A stretch of 64,000 nt of DNA from contig JAAYDF010000244.1 in NCBI GenBank assembly GCA_012729395.1, positions 1-64,000 of the forward strand. Reading direction: 5' to 3'. Below the pieces are notes generated by a model, which ran no database searches, was not told the DNA's origin, and saw nothing but the letters and a program-made list of their open reading frames with translations. The translations under genes and the position numbers were made by a program. The stretch is from Phycisphaerae bacterium. Lineage in GTDB: Bacteria > Planctomycetota > Phycisphaerae > UBA1845 > PWPN01. Shown one piece after another: positions 1 through 51,885 of the stretch. The stretch's first letter is position 1; every line of letters starts with the position of its first letter.

Positions 1-141
1 CCGCCGTTCAGTGGCAAGTTGCCAAAGGCGAAGTATCGAGGGTGGCATGGGTCGGTACTCCGACCCGTGGCCAAATGCGGACAGCCACTGGTCTGGGTAC
101 AGACCAGTGCCACCCAGTGCCCCTGAAGTTCGGATGCACCT
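1..141 (-). repeat. palindromic MITE-like element, copy A (cut by window edge)
   Basis: This stretch is nearly identical, in reverse complement, to 6240-6394, with only a handful of mismatches. It keeps the two internal hairpins: the CACTGGTCTG dyad and the GGGTCGG/CCGACCC dyad. It also keeps one terminal repeat (CGGATGCACC at 131-140). The other end lies before the window starts. No coding capacity is credible; the long plus-strand frame through it is a GC-driven shadow of the nuclease gene. It sits downstream of the nuclease stop codon. Confidence 0.8.
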
Positions 142-42688: not shown

Positions 42689-44374
42689 TCAATGCTGCAG
42701 CCGTTCGAGCATGATGCTGCGGATCAGATCCGTCGGCGCGGGCTGGCCGGTCCATCGCTGGAATTGGGCCGCCGCCTGGCCGACGAACATGGCCACGCCG
42801 TCCACTGTGCGACAGTTATGGTCACGGGCTTGCTGAAGCAGACGCGTCTCCATGGGGTTGTAGATCGTCTCGAACACGACCGTTGTCGGCGGCAGGTCGA
42901 ACGTCGGCAGGGGGGTCTCGTCGGCGTTCGGCCACATGCCGATACTGGTGCATTGCACGACGACGTTGGCTTGGATGGCCGAGCGTGCTTCCCAAGGGAG
43001 GGCGGAGGCGCCGAACTCCGCGGCCAGTTGCTCCGCTTTGGCCAACGTGCGGTTGTAGATGGTGACCCGGCAGCCGGCGTCGATCAGGCCGGCCACGATG
43101 GCCCGGCTCGCGCCGCCGGCGCCCAACACCGCCGCCGACAAACCGCGCAGCCCCTCGGGCCCACGCTCCATGCCCGCACACAAAGCGTCCATCGCTCCGC
43201 GGTAGTCGGTGTTGTGCGCGGCCAAAGAGCCGCGGGCTTCAGCCCGCGCGGTCTTTCCGTGGTGTGTGGCGTTTTCATCGCGAGGGGCGCCGCGCGGGCT
43301 GAAGCCCGCGGCTCCTTGGTCATCCGGCGCGGGCTCGATCGCGAGTGTGTTTGCCGCCCCGATGCGGGCGGCAAGCGGCTCGATGTGGCCGGCGCGCTCG
43401 GCCACGTAGCGCAGCAGGTTCTGCTTGTGCGGGATGGTCACACTGCAGCCGGACAGGCCAAGCCACGGCCGGGCCAGGCAGCCGTCGATGAACGCCGCGA
43501 AGTCGGCATAGTCCGGCTCGACGCGAAGTGGCAGATACACGCCGTCATACCCGATCGCATCGAACGCGGCATTCATGATTGCCGGACTCATCGAGTGAGC
43601 CACCGGGCAGCCGATCACGCCGTACACCCTGGTGTCCGGCCGCAACGCATCCCAACGGTAGAGCGAGCGCATCTGCTTGATGGCAGGTTGCCCGGGGGCG
43701 GATTCCTTGCCCGTATCCAGGGCGGCAAAGGTCAGCAGCCCGCCCACCTTACCGGCCAGTACACGGGTGATCACACCCGCCTCGCCCATGGACAAACCGA
43801 TAGCGGGGCCGGTGCGAGCGGACTCCCGCAGGGCATCGAGCATACGCAGGGCATCAGTGATGCGGTTCGCCTTGCAGGCGAGTTTGACCACGTGGGCCGG
43901 CTCGTTCCGCAGCTCGGCGAAGATCGCATCGAGGTTGGCGGGCGTCTCCGTGAAGTTATGCTTCGAGAGGATGAGCCGGCAGCGCGGCCTCTCCGCACCG
44001 GTATCGACCCTGCAGACCCGCCCGATCGCCTGCCGGAGCTGGGCAGAGCGCTTCCACGCATGGTACTCGACGTCGATGTAGTCCGCGCCCGCCTCGCCGG
44101 CGGCCACCAGCAGAGCAATCCTTTGCGTTTCCTCGCCATGCCACTGCCCGCCCTCCTCGGCGATCCTGCATGTGGCGATCGTCTGCCCTCCGGCCTGGCG
44201 AGCCTGTTCGACCAGCCGGCACACCATGTGAGCGTCCGACCGCTCGAGGTAATCAAGCCGTAGCTCGATCATTCCCGCATTCGCTCGCTTGGCGGACTGG
44301 ATGTCGGCGAAGGCCTGATCCTCCGCTCGGGCCGTCACTGGAACGCAGAGCATGGTCCGCTTCTCACTCATCAT
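42689..44374 (-). CDS. aroDE: fused 3-dehydroquinate dehydratase / shikimate dehydrogenase
   Basis: A 561-residue two-domain shikimate-pathway enzyme. The type I AroD part (1-230) has MIELRLDYLERSD, catalytic His in LILSKHNFTETP and Schiff-base Lys in HVVKLACKANRITDAL. The AroE part (about 247-555) has GVIGCPVAHSMSPAIMNAAF, VTIPHKQ with the catalytic Lys, IGAANTL, NTDYRGAMDAL and the NADP loop AVLGAGGASRAI. Between NTL and NTD are 43 residues instead of about 10-12. The extra residues come from a 98-bp palindromic repeat (43222-43319) that keeps the frame open. AroD-AroE fusions occur in several phyla. Expression is probably separate from leuA, since another copy of the repeat lies between them. 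Confidence 0.93.
   Translation of the reverse strand: MMSEKRTMLCVPVTARAEDQAFADIQSAKRANAGMIELRLDYLERSDAHMVCRLVEQARQAGGQTIATCRIAEEGGQWHGEETQRIALLVAAGEAGADYIDVEYHAWKRSAQLRQAIGRVCRVDTGAERPRCRLILSKHNFTETPANLDAIFAELRNEPAHVVKLACKANRITDALRMLDALRESARTGPAIGLSMGEAGVITRVLAGKVGGLLTFAALDTGKESAPGQPAIKQMRSLYRWDALRPDTRVYGVIGCPVAHSMSPAIMNAAFDAIGYDGVYLPLRVEPDYADFAAFIDGCLARPWLGLSGCSVTIPHKQNLLRYVAERAGHIEPLAARIGAANTLAIEPAPDDQGAAGFSPRGAPRDENATHHGKTARAEARGSLAAHNTDYRGAMDALCAGMERGPEGLRGLSAAVLGAGGASRAIVAGLIDAGCRVTIYNRTLAKAEQLAAEFGASALPWEARSAIQANVVVQCTSIGMWPNADETPLPTFDLPPTTVVFETIYNPMETRLLQQARDHNCRTVDGVAMFVGQAAAQFQRWTGQPAPTDLIRSIMLERLQH
43222..43319. repeat. 98-bp palindromic element inserted inside aroDE
   Basis: GAGCCGCGGGCTTCAGCCCG (within 43227-43251) and its exact complement (43290-43314) are 25-bp arms separated by 38 bp. 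With the flanking CCAA/TTGG they extend to 30-bp arms with one mismatch. The same family occurs at 44388-44485 outside the gene. Each arm is itself nearly palindromic (GCGGGCTTCAGCCCGC). Confidence 0.85.
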
Positions 44375-44536: not shown

Positions 44537-46123
44537 TCATACCTTGCCTTCAGTCGCGGTCTTGGCCGGACTGTCCGCGGCTCGGATCACCCGGTTGATC
44601 GCGTTGAGGAAGGCGATCACGCTGGCCTCGATGACGTCGGTCGATCGCCCGCGTCCGCGGAACGACCGGCCGCTGGCCACCAGCTCCAACTGCACTTCGC
44701 CCTGGGCATCCCGTCCGCCGGTCAGAGCCCGAAGGTCATATTCGCGCAGCACCGCGTCAACCTTGGTCAGGCGAAGGATGCAGGTGAAGGCGGCGTCGAC
44801 CGGTCCGTCACCCGTCGCCGCGTCAATCGCGATCTCGCCGTTCTGCCGATTTCTCAGCTTCACCGTGGCCGTGGGCAAAACACCCGTGCCGCCCGTTGTC
44901 TGCAGCGCTTCGAGATCCCACGTGCGCGCATTCCGCGATTCGTCCAGAATCTGGCCCACGATCGCTTCGAGATCCTCGTCGAAGACCTCCTTCTTGCGGT
45001 CAGCCAGTTGCTTGAACTGCTCGAAGACCTGGTCCAGCCGCTGGTCATCAAGCTGGTGGCCCAACTGCGACAAGCGATCCTGGAGCGCATGTCGGCCGGA
45101 GTGTTTGCCCAGCACCAGCTTCGACGCGGGGATACCCACATCCTCGGGCCTCATGATCTCGTACGTCTCACGGTGGGCGAGCATGCCGTGTTGATGGATG
45201 CCTGCCTCATGGGCAAAGGCGTTCTCACCGACGATCGCCTTGTTGCGTTGGACCTTGATGCCCGTCAACGTGCTGACCAGCCGCGAGACCGGGTAGATCC
45301 GTCGTGTGTTGATGCGCGTGCCGCACTTGTACACGTCCGCCCGGGTGTGCAGGGCCATCACCACCTCTTCGAGGCTGGCATTACCCGCCCGCTCGCCCAG
45401 GCCGTTGATCGTGCACTCGACCTGCCGGGCACCGGCCTTGACCGCCGCCAGCGAGTTGGCGACGGCCAAACCGAGGTCATTGTGGCAATGCACGCTGATT
45501 ACCGCCTGCCCGATATTCGCTACCGTCGCGAACAGGTGTCGGATGATCTCCTCGAAATGGTCGGGCGTCGAGTAGCCCACCGTGTCGGGGATATTGACCG
45601 TCGTGGCCCCCGCGTCGATCACCGCCTGCACCACCTCGGTCAGGAAGGGCAGCTCTGTTCGCGAAGCATCCTCGGGCGAGAACTCCACGTCAGAAACGAG
45701 ACTGCGGGCCAGCTTCACTCCCTCGACGCTCATCTTGATGATTTCCTTCTCCGCACGCTTGAGCTTGTACTGCCGATGAATAGCGGAGGTCGCGCAGAAT
45801 ACATGGATTCGCGGCGACACCGCTTCCTTGAGGGCCTCCGCGGCGCGCACGATGTCCTTCTCGGTGCAGCGAGCCAAGCCCGCGACGGTGCATTCGCGGA
45901 CCAAGCCGGCCACTTGCCGAACCGCCTCGAAATCGTCCGACGAGGTGATGGGGAATCCCGCCTCAATGACGTCGACTTTGAGCAGCTCGAGCTGTCGGGC
46001 AATCTCCAACTTCTCGGCGGTGTTCAGCGACGCGCCGGGAGACTGTTCCCCGTCCCGCAGGGTGGTGTCAAAAATCCGGATCATCGGTTGATCCGCCGTC
46101 GAACCTTGCTCGCTGGTGCTCAT
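44537..46123 (-). CDS. leuA: 2-isopropylmalate synthase
   Basis: A 528-residue enzyme of leucine synthesis that condenses acetyl-CoA and 2-oxoisovalerate. The catalytic TIM barrel (1-300) has the signatures [35 protein letters not shown] and the metal-binding His pair. Then comes [16 protein letters not shown]. The C-terminal regulatory domain (about 390-520) ends with [18 protein letters not shown] and would sense leucine. The ATG at 46123 has GGAGG nine bases upstream. A leader peptide, terminator and promoter precede it (46217-46422), pointing to ribosome-mediated attenuation by leucine supply. Confidence 0.97.
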
Positions 46124-46216
46124 GAGTTCGTGCCTCCTGTGTCCACTGGGCGATTAAGTTAGCCGACGGCCCGGCCCATGGCCAGCGCCCGCCCGCCCAT
46201 CTCGCCGCCCAACAAC

Positions 46217-46249
46217 AAAAAAAGCCCCACGCGGTCTCGCGTAGGGCTT
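46217..46249 (-). terminator. leuA attenuator terminator
   Basis: On the minus strand, a 12-bp stem (AAGCCCTACGCG against CGCGTGGGGCTT) closes an AGAC loop and is followed by seven T residues. It lies about 94 bp before the leuA ATG, in its leader. The 5' arm can alternatively pair with GCGTGGGG at 46291-46298, just after the leader peptide's Leu codons. Confidence 0.8.
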
Positions 46250-46275
46250 CTCGTGTCAGCTTTCTTCTCAGGCGA

Positions 46276-46386
46276 TCAGCCGGCCGAGATCCCCACGCAC
46301 GCACGCAAAAGCAGCAGCCCGAGCGTCATCAGCCCGGCCGGCTCGCGGGTGCACGGGGTCTCAACTGAAGCCTTCTTTGATCGCAT
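46276..46386 (-). CDS. leuA leader peptide, leucine-rich (36 aa)
   Basis: A 36-codon frame from an ATG at 46386 to TGA at 46276, too short for routine gene calling. Leu codons are CTG, CTC, then CTG-CTG-CTT-TTG in a row (residues 19, 22 and 24-27), so six of 36 residues are Leu and four are consecutive. The ATG sits seven bases after the -10 box, so the message probably starts at the ATG and is leaderless. The segment GCGTGGGG following the Leu run competes with the terminator's 3' arm. Slow decoding at the Leu run would free that segment and block termination. Confidence 0.75.
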   Translation of the reverse strand: MRSKKASVETPCTREPAGLMTLGLLLLRACVGISAG

Positions 46387-46393
46387 GGCAGAG

Positions 46394-46422
46394 ATTCTAT
46401 CGGTCGCAAAACGGCTTGTCAA
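46394..46422 (-). promoter_or_regulatory. leuA sigma-70 promoter
   Basis: TTGACA (46417-46422) and TAGAAT (46394-46399) on the minus strand, with the ideal 17-bp spacer. The predicted transcription start coincides with the leader-peptide ATG at 46386. Confidence 0.8.
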
Positions 46423-46593: not shown

Positions 46594-47532
46594 TTACCCC
46601 CGGCTCCCCAACAGCTCGCGCGTCTGGGCGACGTCCAGAGCGATCTGCTCGCGAAGTGCGTCAATCGTGCGGAAATGCTCCTGCGGCCGGAGCCATTCGA
46701 TCAGTTCCAGACGAATCGGCTCGCCGTACAGATCCCCTTCATAATCCAGCAGGTGGGCCTCGATGGTCAGATTACTGCCCTCGAAAGTCGGTGTCCGTCC
46801 GATGCTCACGGCAGTCCGCATGCGGTGGGTGCCGCTCTCGGCCAGGCCGGCGTACACCCCCTCGGCCGGCATGAGCTGCCGACCCAAACGAATGTTCGCC
46901 GTCGGAAAACCCAACTCACGCCCGCGGCCCGCTCCATGCTCCACCGTCCCGAGAAGGGAATAAGGTCTTCCCAGGCACAACGCCGCTTGGTCCACCGTTC
47001 CGCTTCGCAGAAGCTGCCGGATCAAGGAACTCGAGATCACCGTGTCCGGGTGCCCACCCAACCCTACGCGTACCGGCTCGACGATCTCCACGTCGAAGCT
47101 ATTGCGGCAACCCGCCGCCACCAGCGTCTGAACAGTGCCTTCCCGCTTGTGGCCAAAACCGAACGATGCTCCCTCCACCACCGCGATCGGCTGATACTTG
47201 GCCATGATCACGAAGGTGATGAACTCTTCGGCGCTCATCGCCAGGAACTCCGGGCGGCTGCGGACCACCACCGCGATGTCTACGCCCGCATGACGCAACC
47301 AGTGCAGCTTCTCAGGCAGGGGGGTCAGCACGGGCGGTACATGGTCCGGCGTGAGTACGCTCAACGGATGAGGGTCGAAGGTCATGGCCACCAGTTGCGT
47401 CCGGCCCTCATCAGCCCGACGCCGCCCCGCCGCCAGGATCGTCTGGTGACCGCGGTGCACACCGTCAAAGTTGCCGATGCTCAGCACCACATCCGAAAGC
47501 TGCAACGATTCCCAAGCTTGTATGACTTGCAT
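46594..47532 (-). CDS. ribF: bifunctional riboflavin kinase / FAD synthetase
   Basis: A 312-residue protein of standard RibF size. The N-terminal nucleotidyltransferase has LSIGNFDGVHRGHQTIL (about 17-33), FDPHPLSVLTP and a late TVISSSLIRQLLRSG. The C-terminal riboflavin kinase has GRGRELGFPTANIRL with the PTAN motif and the catalytic Glu in FEGSNLTIEAHLLDYEGDLY. It converts riboflavin to FMN and then FAD. It is upstream of, and in the same direction as, leuA. The leuA promoter and attenuator lie between, so co-transcription is not required. Confidence 0.95.
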   Translation of the reverse strand: MQVIQAWESLQLSDVVLSIGNFDGVHRGHQTILAAGRRRADEGRTQLVAMTFDPHPLSVLTPDHVPPVLTPLPEKLHWLRHAGVDIAVVVRSRPEFLAMSAEEFITFVIMAKYQPIAVVEGASFGFGHKREGTVQTLVAAGCRNSFDVEIVEPVRVGLGGHPDTVISSSLIRQLLRSGTVDQAALCLGRPYSLLGTVEHGAGRGRELGFPTANIRLGRQLMPAEGVYAGLAESGTHRMRTAVSIGRTPTFEGSNLTIEAHLLDYEGDLYGEPIRLELIEWLRPQEHFRTIDALREQIALDVAQTRELLGSRG

Positions 47533-47580
47533 GACGCCTTGATGCCCTACGCACTTCTAACCATGTCGCCATACCGATCG

Positions 47581-47694
47581 TTGGACCAAGCGAACTTGTT
47601 CGTGTCGGACCGAGCGAACCTGCTCACGTCGGACCAAGCGAACTTGTTCACGTCGGCGAACCTGTTCACGTCGGACCAAGCGAACTTGTTCGTG
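47581..47694. repeat. 24-bp intergenic tandem repeat of hairpin units
   Basis: Five units: four of 24 bp (47581, 47605, 47629, 47671) and one shortened to 18 bp (47653). The consensus is TCGGACCAAGCGAACTTGTT followed by CACG. Each unit holds the mini-dyad CGAAC-TT-GTTCG or a close variant. They lie between the ribF start and the end of the glycosidase gene. Confidence 0.85.
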
Positions 47695-51096: not shown

Positions 51097-51128
51097 AAAG
51101 AAAGCCCAGAGACCATGGTCCCTGGGCT
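51097..51128 (-). terminator. terminator downstream of the 41-residue membrane protein gene
   Basis: On the minus strand AGCCCAGGGACC-AT-GGTCTCTGGGCT is followed by TTCTTTT. The one imperfect pair is a G-U wobble on this strand but an A-C clash on the other, so it acts for minus-strand transcripts. It lies about 120 bp after the small gene's stop codon. Confidence 0.7.
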
Positions 51129-51371: not shown

Positions 51372-51885
51372 CTTGTACACTCCTCAAAGCTGACGGGTAA
51401 ACGGCGGCCAGTACAAGTCGGCTGCCTTGACTCGTTCAGGTCACTGAAGCGGTCGTCCGCGCCTGGACAGCTCCGGAGCCCGAACCACAAGTTATTAGGA
51501 CCGAACCCCTCGCGAATGTCAAGCCCCCTGATCCGTCGTAACCATCCCTTGTTCCCATCTCCGACCGGCAATCGCGAATCCGAACCATCGAGTCTGTCCG
51601 TTCAAACCTGCCCTCCCAAATCTGTCCTCCCGAATCTGTGCCCGCGAGTCTGTCCTTTCGAATCTGTCCTGTCGAATCTCAGATCTCAGATCTCGAATCT
51701 CGAATCTCGAATCTCGAATCTCGAATCTCAGATCTCAGATCTCCAATCTCAGATCTCCAATCCGCCAACCACCACGCTTTCGATAGCGGTCACCTCATCG
51801 CACCCGAAACTCCCCTGGACCCGCGTCCACGGCTCGACTGCGGCAGCGGAGGATCCGTCCTCCTTCGGCGCCGGCAGAGTAAAAC
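51372..51885. other. intergenic region rich in simple repeats
   Basis: About 510 bp upstream of the small membrane-protein gene and beyond the HemW-like stop. 51587-51674 repeats TCTGTCCTNNCGAATC-like words and 51670-51770 repeats ATCTCGA and ATCTCAG heptamers. Open frames through it translate to heptad-like ISNLESQ runs and are not genes. Confidence 0.6.
51587..51770. repeat. ATCTCGA/ATCTCAG simple-sequence repeat
   Basis: A first block of about 14-bp words (CTGTCCTCCCGAAT and relatives) passes into a tight heptanucleotide array in which AATCTCG occurs at least five times in a row, then AATCTCAGATCTC variants. Confidence 0.8.

Follow-up and report, generated by a model that had tools for sequence, protein, structure and literature searches.

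The leuA gene of the window, by which is meant the whole 64,000-nucleotide stretch of DNA analysed here, lies on the minus strand at 44537–46123. The source genome is a 5.7-Mb fragmented assembly of 370 contigs. The gene encodes a 2-isopropylmalate synthase of 528 amino acids, recognised by a match to NF002086 of 764 bits (cut-off 532) and also by TIGR00973, and is preceded by an AGGAGG Shine-Dalgarno sequence at 46133–46138 (-). Its upstream neighbour on the same strand is ribF (46594–47532). Read along the minus strand, the space between the two genes holds (i) a promoter match, with the -35 hexamer TTGACA at 46417–46422 and the -10 hexamer TAGAAT at 46394–46399, set 17 nt apart and agreeing with the consensus at 11 of 12 positions, (ii) a leader open reading frame of 36 codons, MRSKKASVETPCTREPAGLMTLGLLLLRACVGISAG, at 46276–46386, running from an ATG at 46386 to a UGA at 46278–46276, and (iii) an intrinsic terminator at 46217–46252, made of a hairpin (46252–46219) and seven T (46223–46217). 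The ATG stands 7 nt past the -10 hexamer, and from this distance transcription is predicted to start at the A of the ATG or one base before it (46386–46387). Six leucines, four of them consecutive, occur in the leader peptide; the control codons (46306–46332) are a CTG at 46332, a CTC at 46323 and then the run CTG CTG CTT TTG at 46317–46306.

Four segments of the leader could take part in alternative pairings. Region 1 (AGTTGAGACCCCGTGCACCCGCG, about 46344–46366) is predicted by folding to be able to sequester region 2 in a 1:2 hairpin when the leader carries no ribosome. Region 2 (GCGTGGGG, 46291–46298) is the putative antiterminator partner of region 3 (CCCTACGC, 46239–46246), which is also the 5′ arm of the terminator, and region 4 (GCGTGGGG, 46225–46232) forms the terminator 3′ arm. 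The promoter, the ATG seven nucleotides on, the Leu-rich frame with its stop and the terminator had all been proposed in an earlier note, and each lies where that note placed it. Its 2:3 pairing of 8 bp with one G-U came out identically on recomputation, the region-2 word does recur in the terminator 3′ arm, and the 12-bp stem with seven T that it described matches the consensus stem of related genomes (12 bp, -22.3 kcal/mol), the window's own stem having 15 pairs. The 1:2 hairpin is an additional element that the earlier note lacked.

Several features of the surroundings can be recorded on their own account. About 160 nt after leuA lies a gene for a fused type I dehydroquinase / shikimate dehydrogenase (42689–44374, -), with no terminator found between the two, so that an attenuator ahead of leuA may also affect this gene of the aromatic pathway. 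In its shikimate dehydrogenase half an in-frame insert (about GFSPRGAPRDENATHHGKTARAEARGSLAAH) breaks the family match in two and looks like a dispersed coding repeat. Short tandem repeats lie between genes at 47579–47691 and 51608–51762, with a 24-nt unit in about five copies, a 14-nt unit in about five copies and a 7/21-nt unit (AATCTCA) in about 12 copies. A strong terminator-like hairpin of 11 pairs with a T-rich tail (51128–51103, -) sits just upstream of a B12-type radical SAM gene at 51097; it either closes the preceding gene or is a further premature terminator.

The whole arrangement is retained in relatives. Within the GTDB family of the window it is present in 11/11 genomes whose sequence ahead of leuA could be read, a sample that includes G002, read through CP070790.1. 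In all 11 the -35 hexamer is TTGACA or TTGACG, the promoter spacer is 17–18 nt, and ATG, Leu run and stop lie in one frame; the leader peptides have 30–38 amino acids with 6–10 Leu. The stop falls exactly 12 nt beyond region 2 in 10 of the 11, the exception being G001, where a TAG lies inside region 2. Three of the 12 pairs in the family's consensus terminator show compensatory changes. An alignment of Leu run, stop position and alternative pairing across leuA relatives, which the earlier note had proposed as a check, thus finds them conserved in the family. No fitting attenuator was found upstream of ilvB or trpE in the same family. Most of the family have the fused aroD-aroE gene next after leuA (loci L054, L058, L059 and L009–L012, besides the window), whereas ribF adjoins leuA only in the window, as judged by tblastn of the relatives' flanks, some of which are short, so that this search is not exhaustive. 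Because the attenuator and mostly aroDE are kept and ribF is not detected, the attenuator belongs to leuA and not to the upstream gene.

Across the phylum, 191 leuA upstream regions from 38 families, sampled from the order, the class and the phylum, were scanned for a terminator with the end of a short open reading frame within 110 nt upstream, the frame having a stretch of 10 codons with five or more of a single amino acid. A Leu run with a terminator was found in 88 of the 191, against 5 for Ala, 5 for Ser, 3 for Arg and 0–2 for each other amino acid. With a terminator energy cut of -12 kcal/mol, 84/191 remain, in 18/38 families; these are counts of sampled genomes, not of independent events. 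By family, the element occurs in 15/15 regions of f39, 11/11 of f1, 14/17 of f110, 3/3 of f11 and 7/11 of f12. By this filter it is absent from 20 of the 38 sampled families, among them f57, f24, f61, f85 and two of the window's own order, f3 and f7. A further 15 regions have a Leu-rich short frame that fails the terminator filter, compared with a single region for each of Ala, Ser, Gly and Ile, which makes the phylum count a lower bound. The fixed register of ATG, Leu run, region 2 and stop in 11/11 family members, joined to this Leu-specific enrichment, sets the element beyond chance, and a leucine attenuator of leuA is apparently widespread in Planctomycetota, as far as sequence can tell. 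A covariance model built from 13 order-level leaders and run against 392 phylum genomes gave, outside the window, only G298 as a clear leuA case; the other low-E matches inspected did not lie upstream of leuA, and many were isolated terminator hairpins, since the pairing words differ between families.

Some observations made along the way stand apart from this count. In families f13, f14 and f117, Leu-rich short frames, mostly ending in ...LLLLR[PLR], occur about 115–165 nt before leuA with no accepted terminator (loci L150, L155, L156, L173, L193, L092, L094, L099 and L104); they may represent a second kind of leucine leader that is weaker, Rho-dependent or translational. A transfer of the element to Actinomycetes was considered and rejected, the pattern matches carrying that name corresponding to contigs of G507 and G521, which are placed in the window's class. 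The matches come from two public MAGs titled 'Actinomycetes bacterium' (CSMAG_1421 and CSMAG_2756), which carry the planctomycete leuA attenuator; their titles are probably misassigned.

The words of regions 2 and 3 change together from family to family. They read GCGTAGGG/CCCTACGC in f1, GGATAGGG/CCCTGTCC in f11 and f12, GGTCTTAGG/CCCTGAGACC in f39 and TCGTAGGG/CCCTGCGA in f110 and f112. At the middle positions of the 2:3 helix, GC, AT, TA and CG pairs are found in different loci, in a position-wise table that is drawn from the best duplexes and hence biased towards pairing. A fairer control is a rank test, in which region 2 of a locus is better matched by the region 3 of that locus than by those of other loci: the median rank over loci is 0.13 where 0.5 is expected, and over family medians it is 0.11 (Wilcoxon p = 1.4e-4, 18 families). 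Regions 2 and 3 fit each other poorly in f119 and in part of f110. Co-variation at the sequence level therefore supports a predicted 2:3 antiterminator that is mutually exclusive with the terminator.

Folding calculations, which are thermodynamic for the 1:2, 2:3 and 3:4 pairings alike and do not establish kinetics, give the window's leader three states: (i) with no ribosome, region 1 is predicted to sequester region 2 in a duplex of -30.0 kcal/mol (shuffle p 0.007), with 8/8 region-2 nucleotides paired upstream, and the terminator forms, (ii) with a ribosome at the first Leu codon of the run and region 4 yet to be made, a long 2:3 hairpin of -30.6 kcal/mol forms, and (iii) with a ribosome at the stop, the terminator alone is left, at -25.7 kcal/mol. 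Among the 11 family members the 1:2 duplex is better than shuffles (p < 0.05) in six; in all 11, 6–8 of the 8 region-2 nucleotides pair upstream in the ribosome-free fold, and all eight 2:3 pairs form in the nascent RNA when the ribosome is stalled. The terminator is the more stable structure at equilibrium, so the switch would rely on kinetics. The modelled folds make up the classical three-way set of an attenuator.

The position of the ribosome was modelled as a footprint that reaches 16 nt upstream and 12 nt downstream from the codon in the A site, dimensions assumed from other bacteria. With this footprint, across the 11 family members, 0–1 nt of the 2:3 segment is covered at most core Leu codons, 1–10 nt at the last Leu codon and 6–15 nt at the stop. 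Rarer Leu codons are enriched in the leaders, CTT for example at 0.19 vs 0.07 (pooled test p = 0.007).

Taken together, the conserved anatomy, the specificity for Leu, the co-varying 2:3:4 words and the modelled ribosome geometry support the reading already offered in the earlier note, that the element acts as a ribosome-mediated attenuator. It is very probably a device that adjusts leuA to the available charged Leu-tRNA, with a leader likely to be translated from a leaderless transcript. For the start of transcription, leaderless initiation, stalling and the dependence on leucine, we infer the following course. Transcription would begin at or beside the AUG at 46386, and a ribosome would load directly on this 5′ AUG. 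When leucine is short, the ribosome would stall in the CTG-CTG-CTT-TTG run and leave region 2, about 10 nt ahead, free to pair with nascent region 3; the terminator would then be blocked and leuA transcribed. When leucine is plentiful, the ribosome would run on to the UGA, 12 nt beyond region 2, where it would cover much of that region, so that region 3 would pair with region 4 and transcription would end before leuA. On a leader that carries no ribosome, region 1 would sequester region 2 and termination would win here too.

The step that bears most discussion is initiation. Every one of the 11 family members has its ATG 7 or 8 nt past the -10 hexamer. Streptomyces transcripts have on average 6.3 nt between the -10 and their start (PMC8079986); the 5′ UTR is therefore predicted to be 0–1 nt long, with no room for a Shine-Dalgarno sequence. 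That of leuA itself is strong. Among Leu leaders with a recognisable promoter throughout the phylum, 32 have an in-frame ATG at 6–10 nt past the -10, against a single ATG in the two other frames combined. The distance from promoter to ATG is bimodal phylum-wide, and about half of the leaders look leaderless; in the second mode the ATG lies at 15–61 nt, in many cases with AAGG, GGAG or GAGG before it.

This second mode lends some substance to the alternative that the attenuator is the same but its leader is not leaderless, being transcribed from a start further upstream or read through from ribF, with initiation by another route. The corresponding leaders of related families do have 5′ UTRs of 15–60 nt, which in several cases include a Shine-Dalgarno motif (G045 and G044, which are of the window's own order, and members of f111, f115 and f39), ribF lies upstream on the same strand and a read-through transcript from it would not be leaderless, and the leader promoter is a consensus match with a predicted start. 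Against this stand the near-consensus -10 with its closely following ATG in every family member, the one-sided frame count and, for read-through, the failure to see ribF upstream of leuA in the relatives' flanks that were searched. This alternative is accordingly judged unlikely. A leaderless leader, which the earlier note had called probable, gains from the conserved distance and from the in-frame ATG peak, and on these sequence grounds it is the probable state in the window's family as well as in several others.

Both modes of start occur within each of f39, f110, f112 and f115, so that initiation has probably shifted between them on more than one occasion while the switch stayed conserved. 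The account that we lean towards, with some reserve, is of an old planctomycete leuA attenuator whose leader went back and forth repeatedly between Shine-Dalgarno-led and leaderless forms while the switch was kept, such that whole families sense leucine through a ribosome on a 5′-terminal AUG. The source genome itself contains 14 sites of the form TTGACA-16..18-TANNNT-6..8-ATG and none of the reversed pattern; only that of leuA is an attenuator. Others, judged from their translations, precede an apparent DNA polymerase I, anthranilate synthase component II and several small HTH regulators, and some of the regulator sites adjoin recombinase-like genes. With several of the 14 before clear genes and none for the reversed pattern, leaderless starts are plausible in this genome generally, and leaderless mRNAs may be one of its regular features.

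A different kind of RNA sensor might also use the terminator, such as a T-box, a riboswitch or a protein-bound leader like the actinobacterial LEU element, whose conserved pseudoknot lies ahead of leuA; in other phyla both this pseudoknot and T-boxes do precede amino-acid genes (PMC1262725). In the window, however, no Rfam family reaches its gathering score, and among permissive matches (E up to 10) nothing relevant appears and there is no T-box or riboswitch, the best weak match being NsiR1 (20.4 bits vs 39) on the terminator hairpin. Conservation lies in the Leu codons, region 2, the stop and the terminator and not in an aptamer-like core, and a sensor of this kind is highly improbable. Least credible of all, to the point of being negligible, is that the hairpin ends the upstream gene or a small RNA and that the Leu-rich frame is incidental: there is a strong terminator between ribF and leuA, and termination within the leader would yield a short RNA comparable to rnTrpL of S. 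meliloti (PMC7298713), but the promoter sits after ribF and ahead of the hairpin, relatives do not keep ribF beside leuA in the flanks searched, the enrichment is specific to Leu (88 vs at most 5 for other residues), and the spacing of ATG, Leu run, region 2 and stop is fixed.

Ribosome-mediated attenuation of leuA, the preferred reading, would extend control of amino-acid genes by leader peptides to Planctomycetota, where it would be common rather than a curiosity. Attenuation requires transcription coupled to translation, and the organisation of the planctomycete cell has long been debated. A working attenuator, if the reading is true, would be evidence of such coupling in planctomycetes. 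Leaderless and Shine-Dalgarno-led versions of one element also provide a natural series for studying what a leaderless start does to the timing of attenuation.

A statement of 2010 had it that leader-peptide systems were known from Proteobacteria and Actinobacteria only, to which a case from Firmicutes was then added (PMC2965389); in PMC4833913 Planctomycetes are mentioned only in statistics on the spacing of leader and gene. No description of a planctomycete leucine attenuator or leader peptide was found in Rfam or in the literature searched, consisting mostly of papers available without subscription, and the element is likely to be new to the literature. The earlier note's view that no planctomycete case had been described thus holds as far as this search goes; the case is not an isolated one, the element occurring in at least 18 of the 38 sampled families. 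Its further view, that a leaderless start is unusual, needs qualifying, since leaderless attenuator peptides have been reported in Streptomyces lividans (PMC8079986) and Sinorhizobium meliloti (PMC7298713). Such peptides are already known, and the planctomycete element adds an apparently phylum-wide case.

The closest functional counterpart is the leuL-leuABCD attenuator of Enterobacteria, reported to be the principal control of the leu operon in S. Typhimurium (Searles 1983, as cited in PMC7298713). The two share a leader with a Leu run, alternative pairings with an intrinsic terminator and control of leuA; the planctomycete element differs in showing no Rfam-level similarity, in its probably leaderless leader and in its phylum. 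S. lividans has leaderless leaders leuL1 before leuA, leuL2 before leuS, trpL before trpE and ilvL before ilvB (PMC8079986), and Leu-rich leader peptides, leaderless there and probably so in planctomycetes, are common to both groups. The S. lividans cases before leuS, trpE and ilvB have terminators (PMC8079986), whereas the Streptomyces leuA leader has no typical one, in contrast with the complete and conserved terminator/antiterminator set of planctomycetes; in the work discussed in PMC1262725, codon changes did not support a classical attenuation mechanism for Streptomyces leuA and ilvB. The trpL of S. meliloti, an alphaproteobacterium, whose rnTrpL begins with the trpL ATG (PMC7298713), places a leaderless frame in a terminator-based, ribosome-mediated attenuator, as the planctomycete element probably does, but it senses Trp where the planctomycete leader would sense Leu. 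Mycobacterial cysteine-rich uORFs (PMC4633059) resemble the planctomycete leader in standing before a biosynthetic operon and being rich in the amino acid of its pathway, and leaderless transcripts are common in mycobacteria; they concern a different amino acid, and no conserved intrinsic terminator is reported upstream of the mycobacterial cys operons (PMC1262725), whereas the planctomycete leader ends in one.
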